Notes: generated by a model not told the origin, from the sequence alone. 64,000 nucleotides of DNA from Halorussus salilacus (GCF_024138125.1 NZ_CP099993.1:1054001-1118000); one strand, 5' to 3'. Counted from the first letter of the stretch, positions 9,653 to 50,444 are shown. Program-made: numbers and translations.

Positions 9653-10369
9653 CGCGAACAGGAGGCCGAGGAACGCGACCCCGCCCCCGGCGAACGCGGC
9701 CGCCCCGGTCGGGAGTTTTCGAGCGTGCTTCAGCCCGAACGTCCAGACGTACCCCTGCCAGCACGCGACGGCCAGCGACAGCAGCGCGCTCTCGCCCTGC
9801 GCGCGCCGACTCAGCGACTCGATCCGGGAGGCCAGCAGTTCGGGGTCGCTCGCGGAGAGGTCGATGCCGTTCAGCGAGACCAGCAGGAGCGCGAGGCCCG
9901 CGAGGACCTGGAACGCGGTCGGGAGCATGCCCCACGCCGCGACCGCGAGGGTGTCGGCGAACGACCCCTCGCCGCCGAAGACGGCCGAGGCGACGTGGAG
10001 GCCGACCGCGACCAGCGGCCAGCCGACGAGGACGCCCACGAACACCGTCGGGAGGTGGTCGACGAACGCGTCCCAGAGCAGGTCGCCGACCGCGACGGTA
10101 CGGTGTTCGGGCTGGTCGCAGTCCTCGTGCATCCGCTCTTCGGCCTCGGTCTCGGGTTCGTCGTCGCACACCCAGTCGGGGGGTCGATTCTCGTTCGGGA
10201 CCTCGGTCGTCGCGGTGAGCCGTTCGCTGAGCACCCACCCGAACGCGCCGAGCGCGGCGGTCGTGACAACCGCGACGGCGAGGACGACGAGGGCGGCGCT
10301 GGCGAGGCTCAGCCCCGGCGCGCGCTCGCCGAAGAACTCGTCCGGGCGGAGGAGGGCGTCGAGGACCAT
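9644..10369 (-). CDS. Yip1-family membrane protein
   Basis: A 241-residue integral membrane protein beginning [18 protein letters not shown], the typical start of haloarchaeal YIP1-domain proteins, followed by about five transmembrane helices (roughly 20-45, 105-130, 135-165, 185-210 and 220-240). An acidic/Cys-containing insert lies at about 55-85. The family role in archaea is unknown. A paralog is encoded at 14273-14911. It is monocistronic, oriented leftwards, with a GC hairpin over its stop codon. Confidence 0.82.
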
Positions 10370-10446
10370 ACGGTTATTCGCCCGACAGGTCGGGATAATC
10401 CTGTCGGTTCCGCGCGGAACCGGGCGACGGTATCGAGCGAATCCCC

Positions 10447-10482
10447 CGGCGCGGGGCGACCCCGCGGGGTCGCCCCGCGCCG
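10447..10482. repeat. 36-nt perfect palindrome upstream of pth2
   Basis: A perfect self-complementary sequence of 36 nt with no loop, centred on CCCGCGGG, in the 153-bp gap between the divergent Yip1 and pth2 genes. It ends about 40 bp before the pth2 start. No protein or known RNA is evident. Confidence 0.7.
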
Positions 10483-10522
10483 AGTAGCCACCGATTTAAC
10501 CGCCCGGGACGTTCGCGGGGAC

Positions 10523-41712: not shown

Positions 41713-43932
41713 ATGAGCGAGGTATCGAGTGACGGACCATCCGGAGACGAAACACCGTCGCCGGAGGTCCCACCCCCCATCCCGCCCGATGACCCCGAGG
41801 CGTGGTACGCCCCGGACGTGCGCGCCCAGTACGAACTCCACCCCGGCGTGGTCGCGACCATCCGTGATACCGACGACGGCTTCGACTATCTGGTCCGGGA
41901 GCCGTCGCTGTCGCCCGCGGGCGAGGACGCCCTCGCCCGCGTCGCCGACCACTTCTCGACCGCGAACCTCGAGCGGCCGCTGACCCGCGAGGGCGCGACC
42001 GAGCGCATGGCCGCCGGGTTCGACCCGAAGTACCGCCGGATAATCGACCGGCTGACCGACCTGCCGCCCGACGCCCGCAGGCGGGTCGAGTACCGCGCGC
42101 TCCGGGACCTGCGGTGTCTGGGCGACCTCACGCCGCTGGCGCTCGACGACGGCATCGAGGTCGCCGACACCGCGGGCGAGAACCTCGTGGTCCACACCGA
42201 CGACTACGCGCCCGCCGACACCCGCCTCCCGTCCGACGCCGACTTCCTGGAGCGGTTCGCCAGCGAGCGCGTCGAGACCCACACCGTCGACTTCCGGAGC
42301 TTCCGGGTCCCGGTAGTCGTCTATCGCGAGCACTTGCTCGCGAACGACGCCTTCACGACCAAGTACGCCGTGCTCGAACCCGACCTCCTGCCGGGCGACG
42401 AGGAACTGATACGGGAGTGCAAGGACCGCATCTGGGAGACCAACGTCGACGGCGTGGTCGAGGACCGCGCGGCGTTCGTCCGCGAGCGCGCCCGGACCTT
42501 CCTCTCGCGGCGGTTGACCGCGCGCAACACCCGGGCGTGGCTCGACGCCGCCGCCTACCGGGCCCGGACCGCGCTCGCGGAGTACGACCTAGCGGTCCCG
42601 CCCGTCAACCACCGGTTCTCGACCGACCGGCTCTCGGACCTCGTCTACTACGTGATGCGCGACTTCGTGGGCCACGGCAAGCTCACGATTCCGATTCGCG
42701 ACGACCTCTTAGAGGACATCGAGGCCAACCGGGTCGACGAGCGCATCAAGGTGGTGCCCCGCGGCCGGGAGATCGGTCACGGCGAGCGCATCCCGACGAA
42801 CCTCCGGTTCGAGGACGAGTCGGCGTTCGTCAACGTCGTGACCCAGATGGCCGCGAGCGACGGCACCGAACTCAACGCCTCGAACCCCAGCGCGAAGGTC
42901 AACCTCGACCCGGCGGGCGTTCCGGACGGGACCACCATCCGGTGTGCGGTCGCGCTGGGCGTCATCAGCGAGGACGGCCCCCACATCTCCATCCGCAAGC
43001 AGGCCCCCGAGGCGATGACGCCCGTGGACCTGCTCGAATCCGACAGCCTCTCGACCGAGATGGTGACCCTGCTCTGGCAGGCCTACGAGCACCACGGCGT
43101 CGTGCTGTTCTCGGGGCCGACCGGCGCGGGCAAGACCACGCTGATGAACGCTCACATGCCGTTCGTGCCCTACCGCGACCGACCCATCTCCATCGACGAG
43201 GGGTCCCGAGAGGTGCGCCTGCCCCACGAGACGGGCGTCTCGCTCACCACCCGCGACCACGAGAGCGACTACAAGCGGGTCACGATGGCCGACCTCATGA
43301 CCGAGTGCAACTACCTGAATCCCGACGTGGAGGTCATCGCGGAGATAAACACGCCCGCGAGCTTCGAGACGTTCGCCGAGACGCTCAACACCGGCCACGG
43401 CGTCATCGGGACGACCCACGCCGAGGACGTCGAGAAGCTGGTCAACCGCGTCATCGAGCAGGGCCTGCCCTCGTACCTCCTGCAGGAACTCGACCTCGTG
43501 GTCTTCCCCCAGCGCGTCGACGGCGAGCGCTACGTCGGCGAGGTTGTCGAACTCCTCACCGAGTCGGAGTTCGCGGACCTCGACTCGGCGCGCGCCCGCT
43601 GTGGGACCGTCCGAAAGGACGACGTGACCGTCTACTGGAACACTGTCGCGTGGCGCGATACGGAAGGAGAGTTCCACCTCGCGTACGACCACCCGCGACT
43701 CGACGGCGGAGGCGACGAGCGCGCTCGTCGCCTCCGCTTTTTCGACAGGCTCGCGAATCGGACCGACCGGACGGTCGAGGAGGTGGAAGCGGAGTTCCAC
43801 CGCAAGCACGGCTACGTCCAGTATCTGGAGCGGGAGGGCATGGACGACTTCGACGAACTGTTCGGGTTCCTCTCGGACCTCCAGACCAACGAGGCCGCGA
43901 CCGTCGAGCGGGCGGGGCGAGGAACTGTCTAA
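41713..43932 (+). CDS. type IV pilus/secretion ATPase (PilB/TadA-like)
   Basis: A 739-residue archaeal type II/IV secretion ATPase that powers assembly of pili or a related system at the membrane. Walker A GPTGAGKT is at residues 468-475; Walker B/Asp-box VEVIAEINTPASFETFAETLNTGHGVIGTTHAED follows. The N-terminal 250 residues are the usual archaeal helical domain. Near residues 665-676 a 32-nt perfect palindrome plus T5 (43706-43742) encodes an Arg/Glu/Gly insert. The membrane partner at 48543 is separated from it by a 4.6-kb insertion. The C-terminus EAATVERAGRGTV matches a short fragment at 48026-48070. Confidence 0.9.
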   Translation: MSEVSSDGPSGDETPSPEVPPPIPPDDPEAWYAPDVRAQYELHPGVVATIRDTDDGFDYLVREPSLSPAGEDALARVADHFSTANLERPLTREGATERMAAGFDPKYRRIIDRLTDLPPDARRRVEYRALRDLRCLGDLTPLALDDGIEVADTAGENLVVHTDDYAPADTRLPSDADFLERFASERVETHTVDFRSFRVPVVVYREHLLANDAFTTKYAVLEPDLLPGDEELIRECKDRIWETNVDGVVEDRAAFVRERARTFLSRRLTARNTRAWLDAAAYRARTALAEYDLAVPPVNHRFSTDRLSDLVYYVMRDFVGHGKLTIPIRDDLLEDIEANRVDERIKVVPRGREIGHGERIPTNLRFEDESAFVNVVTQMAASDGTELNASNPSAKVNLDPAGVPDGTTIRCAVALGVISEDGPHISIRKQAPEAMTPVDLLESDSLSTEMVTLLWQAYEHHGVVLFSGPTGAGKTTLMNAHMPFVPYRDRPISIDEGSREVRLPHETGVSLTTRDHESDYKRVTMADLMTECNYLNPDVEVIAEINTPASFETFAETLNTGHGVIGTTHAEDVEKLVNRVIEQGLPSYLLQELDLVVFPQRVDGERYVGEVVELLTESEFADLDSARARCGTVRKDDVTVYWNTVAWRDTEGEFHLAYDHPRLDGGGDERARRLRFFDRLANRTDRTVEEVEAEFHRKHGYVQYLEREGMDDFDELFGFLSDLQTNEAATVERAGRGTV
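43706..43742 (+). terminator. terminator-like palindrome plus T-run inside the pilB-like gene
   Basis: Perfect 16-bp arms 43706-43721 and 43722-43737 without a loop, followed by TTTTT (43738-43742). The form is that of an intrinsic terminator, but it lies within the coding frame. It may attenuate transcription or be a palindromic insertion. Confidence 0.5.
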
Positions 43933-44031
43933 GCCTCTTTGACGACGCATTTCATCTCCAAATCTAATTTATGTATTGGTTATAATTAGTCCCAAAACTT
44001 ATGTTGTTCTCCTCCGTCAGTATGTTTTGCA

Positions 44032-44184
44032 ATGTCACACGACATTCCCACTTCGCTCGAATCGGAGTACGAGCCCGCCCACAACGAGACCGACAAGCAA
44101 GTCGTCGTCGGAAGTTCGAGCTGTTACATCAGCGACGACCCGGTGTGTAACAGTCCGGGCGACGACTACGAAAAGCGCTTCTGA
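44032..44184 (+). CDS. candidate lanthipeptide precursor peptide
   Basis: A 50-residue peptide, too short for usual gene scans. Leader-like acidic part is residues 1-23 (SHDIPTSLESEYEPAHNETD). The probable core, from about residue 24, is VVVGSSSCYISDDPVCNSPG with Ser at 28-30, 34 and 41 and Cys at 31 and 39: the Ser plus Cys composition needed for two lanthionine rings. The remaining tail DDYEKRF is polar. It is 65 bp from the end of the convergent LanM gene and downstream of the ATPase gene. No double-Gly cleavage site is visible, so the leader boundary (perhaps after Gly27) is a guess. No exporter gene seen. Confidence 0.7.
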   Translation: MSHDIPTSLESEYEPAHNETDKQVVVGSSSCYISDDPVCNSPGDDYEKRF

Positions 44185-44249
44185 ACTGTCGGTCGACGGC
44201 CGGTCGACTCCGTTTTCACGACCACGCTACAGAGACCAGCCCCCGAGTG

Positions 44250-47200
44250 TCACTCCAGTCGCATCACGTTCGGCAGGGCGATGTCCCTGTCGCGAACCGT
44301 CAGCTGTAGCGCGACGTAGCCGACGCCCGCCAACCCGGTGAACAGACCGAACCGGGGAAGCATCGGCAGGTGATTTCCGATTCGGAACCGTCCTTCCGCC
44401 TCGGCGCGTTCGAGCGTCTTTTCGAACAGTGTCTCGCCCTTCGACGTGAGTTCGGGGTCCCCAAGGGTCTCGCCCGCGTCGACCATGACCAGCGCCCGTC
44501 CCATGGACCCACAACACAGCGAATCTTCCAGACTGGGTTCGGTTCGGAGATTCTCGCGGGGAATCGAGATGTCCGTCGGCACCTCGCGTCCGGCCGTCTC
44601 TGCGACTACGACGTGCCCGAGTGTGACTCCGACCGCACCGTTACACCAACCCCAGATGGTTCCGCTCTCGTCGTCGTACAGATTCTCGCATTCCGGGTCG
44701 GTCTCGCGTCGCCACCGTTCGGCGTCGCACCGGAGGGCATTCTCGCCGACGCGGGCGTACGTCTCCTCACCGGTCGCCGCGCTCAGTTTCACGAGCGCGG
44801 CCCCGATTCCGCCAGCGCCGTGTGCGAAGGCAAAACGCGGGTCGTTCCCCTCACTCGTGGGGATTCGATACCCGTCCCCAGTTTCGGCCGTCGCTTCCAG
44901 CAGGTGGTCACCACACCAGCGCGCGCGTTCGAGCGCGCCCCCGTCGCCCGTCCGCTCGTGTACAGCCAGTTGCGCGAGCAGTTCGCCAGCTGTGCCGCCG
45001 ACGACGTCGAGTTCTGTGTCCGACTCGATCTCCTCGCGGGTAGTCCGACCGGCGACGCTCCGCCCGGCTTCGAGCAGTTCCGAGTCGTCGAGCAGTTCAC
45101 CGGCTGTCACCAGCCCGTAAGCGACTGACCCCTTGCCGGTCGCCCCGCCGATTCGGAGGTGGTCTGCGTTTCCGTCCTCGAACGCGGTCTGAATCGGTTG
45201 CAGAACGCGGCGACTCCGGGCGGCGAGTCGGTCGTCGTCGCGGACGGCCGCCGCCGCTGCGAGGAACACCCCCACGCCAGCGTATCCTTCGTAGAGGTTC
45301 AGCTGCGGTTCTTGCAGGAGGAACGCGTCGTCGGGCGACGACCGCGCTAGCTCCGCCCACCGGTCGCTCCCATCTGGATATTCGGTTGTCACGTTCTCCA
45401 AGTGGGCCACGACGTTCGAGACGACCTCCGGAGTCGCGTCGGCGTCCGAGACCGACGCCCCCGAACTCGGTCCATTCTCGGACGGGGCGGCTACAGGGTC
45501 CGGGACCGTCGAACTCGTGAACGCGAGGTCGAGCAGTCGGAGTTGCGTCTCTATCCAGTGTTCGTCGAGGTCTTCGACGCGCTCGCAGGCGTGGTCGAGC
45601 GGCGACTGGTCCACGAACGCGCCTTGCGGTTCGCCGTGGCCGTCCCGAAGTTCGTGGCCGGTCGCATCGACGGTGAACCGCGGGATGGCGAACCGCCGGA
45701 GCGTCGCTTTCTCGGCTTCGACGCAGTTGATGAGGCCGTCTTCGCTCTCGGGAAGGAAAATCCGGTAGAGCGATTCGAGCGCGAACGACCGCTGGATTCC
45801 GGACCGAAGTTGCGAGGAGTACGCGCTCTCGATGAGTTTCGAACTGTAGTGGCCCGTCGGTCGGACCAGATACCGAATCTCACACCCCTCGAACGACCGG
45901 AGCGGCCCGTCTCGGAACCCCTCTCGGTCGGCCGAGATCGCGTCCACAGCGTCCCTGAATCCGCGTTTCAGTTCGTCGACATACTCCGAGGTCCCCCGAA
46001 TCTCGCCGTCGAGTCGGGGGAGGTTCGTTCCGTCGAGGCGGCGTTCGTCTCGGAACGACATCTCCATGCCGTCGGTGTTCGGATCGGAGAAGGCGGGTGA
46101 CTTCCGTTCGTACTCCACGTCGTCCAACTTCGTCAGCCCACTGTTCGTGACCGTCTGGGAGTCGCCCTCGGTGACCGCAGTCGTGAACGGCACGAGCACG
46201 GTTTCGAGAATCGACCGCTCGACGAGCGACGACAGCGCGGGCGACGACGGCGAAATTGGTGCGTCGAACCGCGGCGAGAGCACGGTTTCGTGGTCCACGA
46301 TGATCGGTTGGTCGCCCGCGGCGACGATGTTCTCCTGGTGGAGGTCGGTCGAGCCGAGGACAAACGCCAGCGCGCTCAGCGCGCCCATCCGCTCGAAGTA
46401 TCGCTCGACTCCCTCGGCCGAGTCGCACTCCGCGTGAGTGACGACCTCCATCCATCCGTAGTCGTCGCGGTCGAGGACGCGCGGCGCGTAGAGGTCCGGC
46501 ACGTCGGTATGTTCGTTCGTCCAATCGAGTACGTCGGCGAACGCTTGCTCGCCGCCGACCGACCGAGGCTTGTAGACGACCGAGCAGTCGGCTTCGAAGT
46601 CGATCCGCCAGACGATTTCGCCGTCGCCGTGTGGGTCGTCGGAGAGGGCGGCCACGTCGGCCACGCGACCGAGTTCCTCACCGTCGTTGAACTGCTCGGC
46701 CAGCACCCCGCCGTCTGCCGCCAGTCGTTCGTCCAGTCGACTCACGGCGGTGTGCCACTGTTCGACGATCCTACCGAGCAACTCGAAAAGCACGGGATAC
46801 GTCTCGAAGATGGCGTCGTAGTCTCCGTATCGCCGAACGAACTCGTCGTACACCGTCGTCGAGTCAGTCGTCTCCTCGAAGTCTGCGTCCGGGTACTCCC
46901 GTCGCTGGTACGCCTTGAACAGGATGAACAGCGGGTGCTGAAACGCGGTCGTCAGGCGTTCAAACAGCCAGTCGGTCAGCGAGTCGAGCGCGACCGACGA
47001 GAACTCGCTTTCAAGGTCGGTTCCCGCGGTTCCAGCGTCCGCGAGCGGTGCCACGAGGTCCACGAATGGCGACGTCTCGTATCTCGACGCGAGGGGTCGC
47101 GGTCGCTCCAGTTCGACCGCGCGCGCCACGACTTCACCGGCGGTTTCGAGCGCCGACGGGACGACATCGGAATCGCCCCGCTGGAGGGCCTCGAATCGCT

Positions 47201-47399
47201 CGCGCAGCCCCTCGACGGTGTACCCCGAGAGCGCGAGGCGTTCGGCGAACGCCCCTTCCGAATCGAACACGTCTCGCCAGTCGGCGAGGAACTCCTCGAA
47301 GTCGAACGCCGACGGGAGCGGCGGGTTCGCCTCAGAGTCGAGGTACGAATCGAGTGGCGTCGTCCGGGCGGCCGATTCCGAGAGGAGCGACTGTCGCAT
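44250..47399 (-). CDS. lanM: class II lanthipeptide synthetase LanM
   Basis: A 1049-residue LanM, which dehydrates Ser/Thr of a precursor peptide and then cyclises with Cys. N-terminal dehydratase (DUF4135) has CSVVYKPRSVGGEQAF, then FVLGSTDLHQENIVAAGDQPIIVDHETVL, a kinase-like active region. C-terminal LanC-type cyclase has FAHGAGGIGAAL, IWGWCNGAVGVTLGH (Cys about 919) and DSLCCGSMGRAL (Cys about 962-963). The CCG rather than CHG gives three Cys zinc ligands, as in ProcM-type cyclases. ATG 47399 is the start; TTAACTTA about 25-30 bp upstream fits a leaderless promoter. Convergent with the precursor gene. Confidence 0.92.
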   Translation of the reverse strand: MRQSLLSESAARTTPLDSYLDSEANPPLPSAFDFEEFLADWRDVFDSEGAFAERLALSGYTVEGLRERFEALQRGDSDVVPSALETAGEVVARAVELERPRPLASRYETSPFVDLVAPLADAGTAGTDLESEFSSVALDSLTDWLFERLTTAFQHPLFILFKAYQRREYPDADFEETTDSTTVYDEFVRRYGDYDAIFETYPVLFELLGRIVEQWHTAVSRLDERLAADGGVLAEQFNDGEELGRVADVAALSDDPHGDGEIVWRIDFEADCSVVYKPRSVGGEQAFADVLDWTNEHTDVPDLYAPRVLDRDDYGWMEVVTHAECDSAEGVERYFERMGALSALAFVLGSTDLHQENIVAAGDQPIIVDHETVLSPRFDAPISPSSPALSSLVERSILETVLVPFTTAVTEGDSQTVTNSGLTKLDDVEYERKSPAFSDPNTDGMEMSFRDERRLDGTNLPRLDGEIRGTSEYVDELKRGFRDAVDAISADREGFRDGPLRSFEGCEIRYLVRPTGHYSSKLIESAYSSQLRSGIQRSFALESLYRIFLPESEDGLINCVEAEKATLRRFAIPRFTVDATGHELRDGHGEPQGAFVDQSPLDHACERVEDLDEHWIETQLRLLDLAFTSSTVPDPVAAPSENGPSSGASVSDADATPEVVSNVVAHLENVTTEYPDGSDRWAELARSSPDDAFLLQEPQLNLYEGYAGVGVFLAAAAAVRDDDRLAARSRRVLQPIQTAFEDGNADHLRIGGATGKGSVAYGLVTAGELLDDSELLEAGRSVAGRTTREEIESDTELDVVGGTAGELLAQLAVHERTGDGGALERARWCGDHLLEATAETGDGYRIPTSEGNDPRFAFAHGAGGIGAALVKLSAATGEETYARVGENALRCDAERWRRETDPECENLYDDESGTIWGWCNGAVGVTLGHVVVAETAGREVPTDISIPRENLRTEPSLEDSLCCGSMGRALVMVDAGETLGDPELTSKGETLFEKTLERAEAEGRFRIGNHLPMLPRFGLFTGLAGVGYVALQLTVRDRDIALPNVMRLE

Positions 47400-47580
47400 G
47401 TGTGTTTCGACAGAGAAAGTATCGTAAGTTAAGAATTTTTGTCGGGCATTCGGACATAAGTGAAACCTCCGACAGATAAGCAAACTATATTTCACATCGT
47501 GTCTTCAGTGAGATACCGTTCGCGCGTCCCGTCTGTCTCCCCCTGATTATAATTTAATTTTAAATACTGGAAGGGGTAAA

Positions 47581-47765
47581 GTGGGCCATGAGCCCACCGA
47601 GGAGGACCGCGCGGTGAACGCCACTGGCGACGGATCGAGGACGCGCTCGCTCTCTGTCCTCGACCGCGCGGTCTACGCCCTGTTCTCCAGACATGCCGAC
47701 AGGTCGCGCCACGATGCCGACCGCAAGCGCTACCGCGCGACCGACGTGACCGCCAGCTTCGACGT
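47581..47765 (+). pseudogene. truncated 5' end of a second pilC-like gene
   Basis: Encodes LSVLDRAVYALFSRHADRSR and HDADRKRYRATDVTASFDV, which matches the N-terminus of the intact gene at 48543-50444, and the similarity includes the sequence before the start (GGCCATGA and GGAGGA). It stops abruptly after GCCAGCTTCGACGT at 47765; a short unrelated tail follows to a stop at 47790. Identity is high but not perfect, so this is a diverged allele rather than a fresh duplication. It is just after LanM and in the same orientation as pilB. Confidence 0.82.
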
Positions 47766-47979
47766 GTCCCTTCCAGCGGCGTCCTGCTAGCCGGTACTTC
47801 TCTTTCGTTCGGTCGGAGTTGTACTTCTCAAAGAGATACTCGGTCAGGAACGTCTCGTAGGTGTTATCGCCCTCGTACTGATCGTGGAATTGTTCAAGAC
47901 GTCGCTTGGGAGAAACGTCGTTTAACTGTTTATACACGCCCATCCGGTCCAACGGGTCTGGAGATTGCGTTCGAGTCAT
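47764..47979 (-). pseudogene. truncated integrase-like gene (N-terminal fragment)
   Basis: From ATG 47979 the frame encodes 72 residues: DPLDRMGVYKQLNDVSPKRR, then NTYETFLTEYLFEKYNSDRT and KEKYRLAGRRWKGH, which resembles the N-terminal SAM-like (core-binding) part of haloarchaeal tyrosine recombinases. It then runs directly into antisense pilC fragment sequence at 47764-47766, so the catalytic domain is missing. The family assignment is by pattern only. The breakpoint coincides exactly with the end of the pilC fragment. Confidence 0.5.
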
Positions 47980-47999
47980 GGTTCACGGGCCACTTGTTT

Positions 48000-48024
48000 G
48001 CGGCCGTCACCCGTTGACGGCCGC
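48000..48024. repeat. 10-bp inverted repeat next to the pilB fragment
   Basis: Perfect arms GCGGCCGTCA (48000-48009) and TGACGGCCGC (48015-48024), 5-nt loop, immediately before the pilB 3' fragment. Possible recombination or insertion scar. Confidence 0.5.
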
Positions 48025-48025
48025 G

Positions 48026-48070
48026 AACGACGAGGCCGCGACTGTGGAGCGCGTGAAGCGGGAGACGTGA
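48026..48070 (+). pseudogene. 3' end fragment of a second pilB-like gene
   Basis: Fifteen codons NDEAATVERVKRET plus TGA match the end of the intact pilB-like protein (NEAATVERAGRGTV), including the characteristic EAATVER. Upstream bases do not continue the match, so the fragment is short. Its position, before a full pilC-like gene, is where the 3' end of an original pilB would be. Confidence 0.6.
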
Positions 48071-48107
48071 CTGAACTCTTCGCTCGAAAAATGGGGGACA
48101 GTCGATG

Positions 48108-48362
48108 CTACCCTGCGCACCGACAACCGTCGTAGCAGTCGTACGGACAGTCACTGCAGTCGTACACGCAACAGTCCGGGTTCTCCTCGCAGAACCCGTC
48201 GTCCGGTTCGACTTCTTCGAGTCCGTTCTCCGTCACGCGATACTTGAACTCGACGTCGTCGAGATTCTTCGGTTCGGAATCCGATGCGCCTGCGGCACCC
48301 ACCAGCGCGAAGGTCGACCCTGCACCGGCGGCGAGTCGCTTGAGTGCGGTACGTCGTTTCAT
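48108..48362 (-). CDS. Tat-exported Cys-rich small peptide
   Basis: An 84-residue precursor from ATG 48362. The N-terminus MKRRTALKRLAAGAGSTFAL is a Tat signal ending near GAAGASDSEP. The mature part is about 55 residues: an acidic KNLDDVEFKYRVTENGLEEV section, then a Cys-dense tail with nine Cys in the last 27 residues (CEENPDCCVYDCSDC, then CYDGCRCAG). A Tat leader with a Cys-rich C-terminal peptide is also the layout of some halocins (for example C8), but I see no sequence match, so a metal-binding or antimicrobial peptide are both possible. It is opposite in strand to the pilus operon. Confidence 0.7.
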   Translation of the reverse strand: MKRRTALKRLAAGAGSTFALVGAAGASDSEPKNLDDVEFKYRVTENGLEEVEPDDGFCEENPDCCVYDCSDCPYDCYDGCRCAG

Positions 48363-48542
48363 GAACGACCACATCAGCATTTCTCGTCATAAATAATTAA
48401 TTTTCTGCCTAACTATATTGTGTTAACATCTAATCCGATTTCGAACTGCTCTTCCGATTCGTTCACCATCCATATCGCTAAACCTTAAGTACCAGAGCGA
48501 AGAGAGGAACGGCCATGAACGCGACTGGAGGAGGACGACGGA

Positions 48543-50444
48543 GTGAACACGTCTGCTAACGCTAATCACGGCGCATCGACCCTCTCGGTCCTCGACCGCG
48601 CGCTCTACGCCCTGTTCTCCAGACACGCCGACAGTTCGCGCCACGACGCCGACCGCAAGCGCTACCGCGCGACCGACGTGACCGCCAGCTTCGACGTTTA
48701 CCTCGCCAGAACGTACGGCCTGTCGTGGCTCGCGTTCGCGCTCGTGGCGTTCTGGGCGTTCGCCGTCGCGGTTGCGCTCCCCGACGCGACCGTCGCGGCG
48801 GCCACCGCCTTCGTCCGCCGAGGAGTGCCCGGCCTCGAAGCCGTCCGGACCCCCGACCTCACGCGGACCACCGCGGCAGTCCTGACGGGCGTCGCGGCGG
48901 GGTTCGCGGGGAAACGCGCCACGGTCGCGCTCGGCGGGCTCTACCTCAAGTGGACCGCGAGCGCCCGCGAGTCGAGCATCGAGCGGACCCTCCCCGGCGC
49001 GGTCCGGTACCTCCACGCGCTGTCGTCGGGGAGCGACGACGGCGCGGCGATGCTCCGGAAGGTCGCCGACCGCCAGCAGGCGTACGGCGAGACCGCGGTC
49101 GCCTTCCGGAAGGTGCTCAACAAGGCCATCCTGACCGGGAGCCTCGACGAGGGGCTTCGAATCGTCGCCCGCGACACCCCCTCCCGGGACGCGCTGGCTC
49201 CGTTCCTCGTGAAGTTCCGCGAGCACTCCGAGCAGGGGCCCGACGCGCTGGCCCAGTACCTCCGGATGGAGGGTCGGATGCTCAGCCACCGCCAGTCCCG
49301 GACCCGCGAGCAGGCCGGGGACTTCCTCGAACTCCTCGCGGAGATGTTCATCGTCCTGCTGGTGATGCCCGCGCTGCTGGTCATCGTGATAACCGTGATG
49401 AGCGTCCTCGCGCCCGGCCTCAACGAACCGACGCCGACGCCGTTCGGTTCCGTCTCCGCCCGGGCGGTGCTGGTGTACGGAAGCGCGGCGTTCATCCTCG
49501 TGGTCGGTGCGGGCGCGGCCGCGCTCGTGGGAGCGCTCCGCCCGGCCGACCAGTCGGGCCCCACCTACGACCGGCCCGCGAGCGCGCTGGCGACCGTCGC
49601 CAGCGCGCTCGCCAACCCCGCGAGTTCGGTGGTCGCGTTCGCACCCCTCGCGGTCGCCGTCGCCGGGTTGCTCCGGTCGGTCGGCTACGGACCGGTCGAC
49701 GTGGTCCTGCTTGGCTACGTGTCGTTCGCGCTCCCGGTGGGACTGGTCGCGCTCCGGCGCGCCAGAATCGACGACGCGAAGGACCGAGAGATAAAGGACT
49801 TCGTCCACGCCGTCTCGGGCCACGTCAGCCTCGGGCGACCCTTCTCGGAGGCGGTCGAGCGCGTCGCCGGGAACGTCGACCTCGGCGCGCTGAACCCCGA
49901 CGTCGCCGACCTCGCGTTCAACGCCAACCTCACGACACGCGAGGGCGACCTGCGGGCGTCGGCGCTCTCGCGGTTCGTCGACCGGGTCGGCACCCCGCTC
50001 GCCGACCAGACCATCGGACTGGTGACGGGCGCGCTGGACGCGGGCGGAGACGCCGAGGCCGTCTTCGAGACCCTTCAGGTCGAGATCGGGCGGCTCTACC
50101 ACGAGCGAAAGGCGCTTCGCGCGAACATGCTGGTGTACGTCGCGGTGGGGTGGACCACCGCCCTGCTCGTCGTCGGCATCATGGTCGCGGTCAACGGCTA
50201 CGTCCTCGACAGCTTCGCCCAGCTGTCGTCGCTGTCGACCGCCGACGCGGGCATGGCCCTCGACCCCGACGCGGTCCAGCCCGCCCGCGACCGCCACCGC
50301 TTCTACGTGGTGACTCAGGCCACCATGCTCGCCTGCGGGTGGTTCGCCGGATACGCGAGCAGGGGTCGCTACGAGGCGATGCTCCACTCGGCCGCGCTGG
50401 TCGGAATCGCCCACTTCGTGTTCGCGGGAGTGGGGATGATCTGA
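48543..50444 (+). CDS. type IV pilus/secretion membrane platform protein (TadC/PilC-like)
   Basis: A 633-residue archaeal T2SF-type membrane protein starting GTG 48543. It has two T2SSF halves, with hydrophobic helices at about 60-80, 95-115, 270-295, 320-345 (first half) and 360-410, 535-560, 600-630 (second half). LSVLDRALYALFSRHADSSRHD at the N-terminus is repeated in the truncated fragment at 47581-47765. With the ATPase at 41713 it forms the engine of the system; the downstream five small proteins are its likely substrates. Its stop overlaps the next start (TGATG). Confidence 0.88.
   Translation: MNTSANANHGASTLSVLDRALYALFSRHADSSRHDADRKRYRATDVTASFDVYLARTYGLSWLAFALVAFWAFAVAVALPDATVAAATAFVRRGVPGLEAVRTPDLTRTTAAVLTGVAAGFAGKRATVALGGLYLKWTASARESSIERTLPGAVRYLHALSSGSDDGAAMLRKVADRQQAYGETAVAFRKVLNKAILTGSLDEGLRIVARDTPSRDALAPFLVKFREHSEQGPDALAQYLRMEGRMLSHRQSRTREQAGDFLELLAEMFIVLLVMPALLVIVITVMSVLAPGLNEPTPTPFGSVSARAVLVYGSAAFILVVGAGAAALVGALRPADQSGPTYDRPASALATVASALANPASSVVAFAPLAVAVAGLLRSVGYGPVDVVLLGYVSFALPVGLVALRRARIDDAKDREIKDFVHAVSGHVSLGRPFSEAVERVAGNVDLGALNPDVADLAFNANLTTREGDLRASALSRFVDRVGTPLADQTIGLVTGALDAGGDAEAVFETLQVEIGRLYHERKALRANMLVYVAVGWTTALLVVGIMVAVNGYVLDSFAQLSSLSTADAGMALDPDAVQPARDRHRFYVVTQATMLACGWFAGYASRGRYEAMLHSAALVGIAHFVFAGVGMI

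Follow-up and report, generated by a model that had tools for sequence, protein, structure and literature searches.

A pellan-family lanthipeptide cassette between the pilB-like and pilC-like genes of a Halorussus salilacus type-IV-pilus-like locus

In Halorussus salilacus, a two-gene lanthipeptide cassette consisting of lanA and lanM lies between the pilB-like and pilC-like genes of a type-IV-pilus-like locus. We analyzed it within a genomic stretch of 64,000 nucleotides (GCF_024138125.1, NZ_CP099993.1:1054001-1118000; hereafter, the window), to which coordinates refer unless a locus is named; G000 denotes the genome of the window and other G numbers the genomes compared with it. The pilB-like gene (41713-43932, plus strand) encodes a 739-residue ATPase matching Pfam T2SSE (E=6e-22), one of six T2SSE matches in G000 among the matches listed. 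The pilC-like gene (48543-50444, plus strand) encodes its membrane partner, matching T2SSF (E=3e-16). Pfam thus agrees with both assignments made in a first-pass annotation of this DNA. Downstream of pilC come pilin-like genes carrying the Pfam domains DUF7289, DUF7266, DUF7263 and DUF7261. The 4.6 kb that part pilB from pilC hold lanA (44032-44184, plus strand) and lanM (44250-47399, minus strand). The two are convergent, and lanM is antisense to both pilB and pilC.

The 1049-residue product of lanM is a class II lanthipeptide synthetase. It scored 604.7 bits against NCBIfam TIGR03897 (cut-off 304) and is composed of an N-terminal dehydratase domain, DUF4135 (PF13575, 3.3e-93), fused to a LanC-like cyclase domain (LANC_like, PF05147, 2.5e-33). 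The likely start is the ATG at 47399, from which the reading frame runs to 44250 without an internal stop. The full-length LanM initially proposed for this position is therefore confirmed, on the minus strand. Alignment with 19 other LanMs revealed that the dehydratase and zinc-ligand motifs VYKPR, TDLHxEN, VDxET, RPT, WCNG and CCG are all kept, the CCG zinc motif being present in nearly all haloarchaeal LanMs compared. The window LanM could also be aligned with the solved LicM2 and CylM, and we take the catalytic roles of the aligned motif residues to be those of CylM. When codons were compared with those of four relatives, the nonsynonymous rate (dN) was 0.29-0.34 and the synonymous rate (dS) 0.81-0.91. 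The resulting dN/dS of about 0.34-0.38 indicates that LanM is under purifying selection. Archalans and other haloarchaeal class II systems likewise rely on a LanM made of DUF4135 and LanC (PMC10105419).

The closest known product is pellan of Halorussus pelagicus RC-68, which has the core STGCYISDKPVCI and rings formed via Thr2, Cys4, Ser7 and Cys12 (PMC12144867). Using pellan to place the core borders, we divided the 50-residue window LanA into the leader MSHDIPTSLESEYEPAHNETDKQVVVG, the core SSSCYISDDPVCN and the C-terminal tail SPGDDYEKRF. Full-length LanA homologues, 54-60% identical, adjoin lanM in G015 (two copies), G020 (two) and G024 (one), and in G011 the copy beside lanM is truncated. 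With relatives next to LanM in four other carrier genomes, the short Ser/Cys-containing reading frame noticed earlier is indeed a precursor gene. In the alignment, the leader pattern MSxDIxxSLEsEYEPxxxETD...VG is conserved with YEP invariant, the core is variable, and both core cysteines are invariant. One of the two G020 precursors, which shares this leader pattern and adjoins a LanM 60% identical to that of the window, holds STGCYISDKPVCI, identical to the published pellan core. The window core differs from it in sequence, but shares its length of 13 residues and retains Ser2, Cys4, Ser7 and Cys12 (pellan numbering), that is, Ser/Thr2 and all other ring positions. Since all four positions are kept, the window cassette, as far as sequence can tell, is a previously undescribed member of the known pellan family, and its product is predicted to be a two-ring peptide. 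After two dehydrations, the window core would have a monoisotopic mass of 1352.501 ([M+2H]2+ 677.258). The setting is also distinct: the window cassette has one lanA and sits between pilB and pilC, whereas the G020 cassette has two and sits between hyuA and an ATP-binding cassette (ABC) transporter gene, upstream of pilB.

We then asked how LanMs of this type are distributed. The family search returned five (the window protein and four at 59-63% identity, in G011, G015, G020 and G024), all from one genus. They form a single clade with full support, and the remaining LanMs in the 394 genomes of the order that were searched are at most 34% identical to the window protein. All five clade members lie no more than 7 kb from the same pilB, although, the carriers being kin, these are not five independent events. 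The distances upstream of pilB are 0.1 kb in G011, about 1 kb in G015, 3.4 kb in G020 and 6.7 kb in G024; LanM lies between pilB and pilC in the window only. The check proposed initially, for adjacency of LanM and pilB/pilC in other haloarchaea, thus bears out proximity to pilB, but not a place in the gap, which houses none of the other four. A general link between LanM and pil genes was rejected: across the genomes searched, LanMs that do not belong to the clade show no such linkage, the shortest distance to a T2SSE gene among the matches listed being at least 36 kb, with coordinates compared by eye.

The five cassettes occupy three or four distinct junctions. Gene calls in the relatives were based on a simple codon score, with eight proteins checked by Pfam. 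The cassette sits between hyuA and the ABC genes in G020 and G024, between hyuA and a 116-residue protein gene preceding pilB in G015, between a membrane-protein gene cluster (also present in cassette-free G019) and pilB in G011, and between pilB and pilC in the window. Cassette-free G013, G014, G021 and G022 retain the uninterrupted order hyuA, ABC permease, ABC ATPase, pilB, which identifies lanA-lanM as an added unit. By the same token, the ABC permease-ATPase pair belongs to the locus rather than to the cassette, and we rejected it as the lanthipeptide transporter. The histories of LanM and pilB do not coincide. G000 and G011 are mutually nearest in the pilB comparison, whereas the LanM tree groups G000 with G015 and rejects G000 plus G011 (p value of the approximately unbiased test, p-AU, 0.022; quick tree). 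This conflict rules against vertical co-inheritance of LanM with pilB and suggests that LanMs were either exchanged at this site or duplicated and then lost in part. In G024, a second LanM N-terminal relic adjoins pilB. A plasmid-borne cassette was rejected as well: the plasmid collection offered LanMs of about 30% identity at best, and the relic region of the window described below had no match in that collection. A search for related loci in genome contigs also gave no match.

The constant linkage raises the possibility that the pilus system is a target or partner of the lanthipeptide, which could be a surface signal, a regulator of adhesion or motility, or a cargo that leaves through the envelope machine, and that selection holds the cassette near pilB. 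In support of this idea, all clade members stay close to the same pilB despite the different junctions, and the other LanMs of the order are all more than 30 kb from T2SSE genes among the matches listed (by eye). Moreover, introducing the pel cluster into H. volcanii resulted in higher motility and more archaellin expression (PMC12144867). On the other hand, shared descent may account for the linkage, as the carriers all belong to one genus. In addition, the locus accepts unrelated cargo, pil genes are damaged in some carriers (pilC truncated in G024, pilB split in G015) and retained in cassette-free genomes, and the motility effect was obtained in a heterologous host, on archaella and cell shape. 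We regard functional coupling as unlikely, although the initial hint of an association with an envelope machine gains some ground from the proximity to pilB. The main text of the pellan paper makes no mention of pili or pilins (PMC12144867), and titles and abstracts on haloarchaeal pilB/pilC, or on lanthipeptides with pilB, reported no lanthipeptide-pilus link. Neither the linkage of the pellan clade to the pilus locus nor a hotspot for insertions between pilB and pilC was described in the literature searched. Two archaeal lanthipeptides, pellan among them, are reported to increase host motility. Possible coupling to the pilus is therefore testable, with the pilus locus as a concrete target and the window peptide as a natural variant. 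By analogy with pellan and with archalan alpha, which inhibits haloarchaea (PMC10105419), the window peptide is most likely a narrow-spectrum or signalling lanthipeptide.

A separate observation concerns a membrane-like protein of 116-120 residues, which among the regions compared is limited to the lanM carriers G015 (L075:7405-7755, between lanM and pilB) and G011 (L063, about 10134-10493, in the pilB-pilC gap). The two copies are 52-54% identical. As a guess, this could be a candidate immunity protein.

How typical is a wide gap between pilB and pilC? After correction of the distances for unaligned ends, the gap is no larger than 500 bp in 44 of the 47 genomes of the order outside the family, as the first-pass annotation presumed in calling these genes normally adjacent. 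Within the family, separation is not exceptional: the gap exceeds 1 kb in 11 of 22 genomes, compared with 3 of the 47 others (Fisher p=8e-5, a guide only, as the genomes are related). The alignment of pilC upstream regions offers a rationale. A TATA-like element, TTTAAATA, precedes pilC where the spacer is at least 150 bp long and is missing where pilC abuts pilB; in nearer relatives, CATG and GAGGAGG stand between this element and the pilC start. The window has such a promoter-like element and leader (CTTAAGTACC, CATG, GGAGG) at 48483-48542, plus strand. We read this as an independent promoter of the separated pilC, one that may let the gap accept insertions. If so, a hotspot tolerated via the pilC promoter would explain the shuffled-looking pilus loci of the family and would point to where secreted peptides and enzymes may be sought.

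The same element argues against control of the cassette by the pilus operon, as had been suggested. The cassette does not share a strand and a promoter with pilB and pilC: lanM is antisense to both, and lanA lies downstream of and co-directional with pilB in the window genome only, the lanA and lanM genes of the other four carriers being upstream of pilB. Operon control is thus unlikely. In overall order (T2SSE ATPase, T2SSF membrane protein, pilin-like genes) the window resembles PilB1-C1 and PilB3-C3 of H. volcanii (PMC6491452), but differs from these paralogous loci in the 4.6 kb between pilB and pilC and in the promoter-like element of pilC.

Taken together, we interpret the locus as a minimal, probably working pellan-family cassette, lanA plus lanM, at an insertion hotspot of a type-IV-pilus-like locus, and assign this reading a probability of roughly 0.78. 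LanM would bind the conserved LanA leader, dehydrate core Ser2 and Ser7, and then join these to Cys4 and Cys12 in two thioether rings. Removal of leader and tail and release of the 13-residue intertwined bicyclic peptide would fall to host proteases and an exporter not dedicated to it. Both genes would use their own promoters, independent of the pilus operon, and pilC with the downstream pilin-like genes would rely on its own promoter-like element.

The remainder of the gap bears on how this layout arose. First, a 5' relic of a pilC gene (about 47557-47775, plus strand; direct repeat D1, also supported by blastn) comprises the TATA-like TTTTAAATAC, GAGGAGG, a GTG start and about 55 codons, with 122 bp at 94% identity to the intact window pilC. 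Next, a two-gene tyrosine-recombinase module is represented by the 5' end of its small gene (47756-48025, minus strand, with the gene remnant at 47979-47770), recognized by amino acid homology (80% to G016 and 79% to G007, where a phage-integrase-family protein follows). It is succeeded by the 3' relic of a second pilB (48026-48070, plus strand), NDEAATVERVKRET with its stop, 78% identical to the 3' end of the intact pilB. This relic continues unbroken into a spacer like that downstream of the intact pilB in G020: positions 48026-48610 are 84-96% identical to the G020 spacer spanning the pilB 3' end, a small Tat-signal peptide gene and pilC, and flanking pilC is lower, mostly 64-92%. That small gene (48108-48353, minus strand) encodes 81 residues with a twin-arginine (Tat) signal, assigned from its RR motif, and a Cys-rich C-terminus; it matches G020 (98% at the amino acid level) and G013 (67%). 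The "peptide and mobile remnants" noted at the outset are therefore real. The two pil relics, one from the 3' end of a pilB and one from the 5' end of a pilC, led us to reject a simple single insertion into an intact pilB-pilC operon, as originally envisaged. The simplest reading, with a tentative order of events, is a head-to-tail fusion of two pilB-pilC spacers that cost the genes in the middle and gave the layout pilB1-lanA-lanM-pilC1' / rec' / 'pilB2-TatCys-pilC2.

An assembly error, raised initially as a concern, was set aside. The assembly has four contigs and the window is interior to one of 3.04 Mb, which excludes a contig-end artefact, and the right part of the gap closely matches the G020 spacer; a misassembly is formally possible.

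As a side observation, the Tat-signal Cys-rich peptide occurs in 3 of the 394 genomes of the order, each time between pilB and pilC, and its 98% identity in G020 exceeds the 81% of pilC there. As a guess, it may be secreted and belong with the Cys-rich microhalocins.

The recombinase remnant invites another explanation, namely that a site-specific mobile element targeted pilB/pilC and brought lanA-lanM as cargo. A complete two-gene module stands in L077 (G016) and L086 (G007) just before a pilB 3' fragment starting at about residue 556-563, and thus appears to interrupt pilB in these genomes; the window remnant, for its part, stops exactly at the start of the second-pilB relic. Yet this remnant marks the junction of the two spacers and is not part of the lanA-lanM unit, and neither a recombinase nor terminal repeats bound the unit. 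There is no recombinase near the cassettes of G011, G020 and G024 (gene lists, names from sequence only), no repeated or shared border sequence is visible by eye among the carrier cassettes, and G000 has no full-length integrase homologue closer than 32% identity. We consider such an element quite improbable as the source of the cassette.

Several points weigh against a working cassette reached by spacer fusion. The YEKRF end of the window LanA tail is unlike the EMEF/LQF tails of its relatives. The window cassette has neither a transporter nor a protease gene of its own beside it, and the nearest G000 homologue of the locus ABC permease of relatives is 42% identical and ~0.8 Mb off. In the published work, pellan itself was not detected in its wild-type strain (PMC12144867), so the window cassette may be silent. 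Finally, the fusion is read from short relics of 122 bp and 45 bp. The odd tail and the missing transporter, together with the relics in the gap and the broken pilB or pilC of several relatives, could also mean that the cassette is an inert, productless remnant hitchhiking in a degenerating, recombination-prone locus. This is hard to reconcile with a full-length LanM that keeps all checked motif residues and the low dN/dS given above, or with a LanA that retains its leader motif and ring residues, and we find decay doubtful.

Finally, we note the condition and cargo of related loci. The pil loci of G001, G007, G014, G015, G016, G024 and G026 have a split or truncated pilB or pilC, or one of the two was not found, so part of the family seems able to do without this pilus locus. 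It is conceivable, but in our view improbable, that the pilus locus of the genus is a standing exchange site for secreted peptide and enzyme cassettes, the pellan type being kept through a shared surface or motility programme. In G012, G017, G026 and G005 (L065 and L085 among the loci), the gap is occupied by Tat-type glucanase-like genes of the GH16 kind, which Pfam confirmed in G012 and G005, and of the GH81 kind, and the gap of G022 carries an asparagine synthase gene. The G013 gap also holds a GH81-like gene, dehydrogenase E1-like genes and two Cys-rich genes; at L067:15854-16291 it encodes a 145-residue protein without a Pfam match, whose C-terminus is very rich in Cys.

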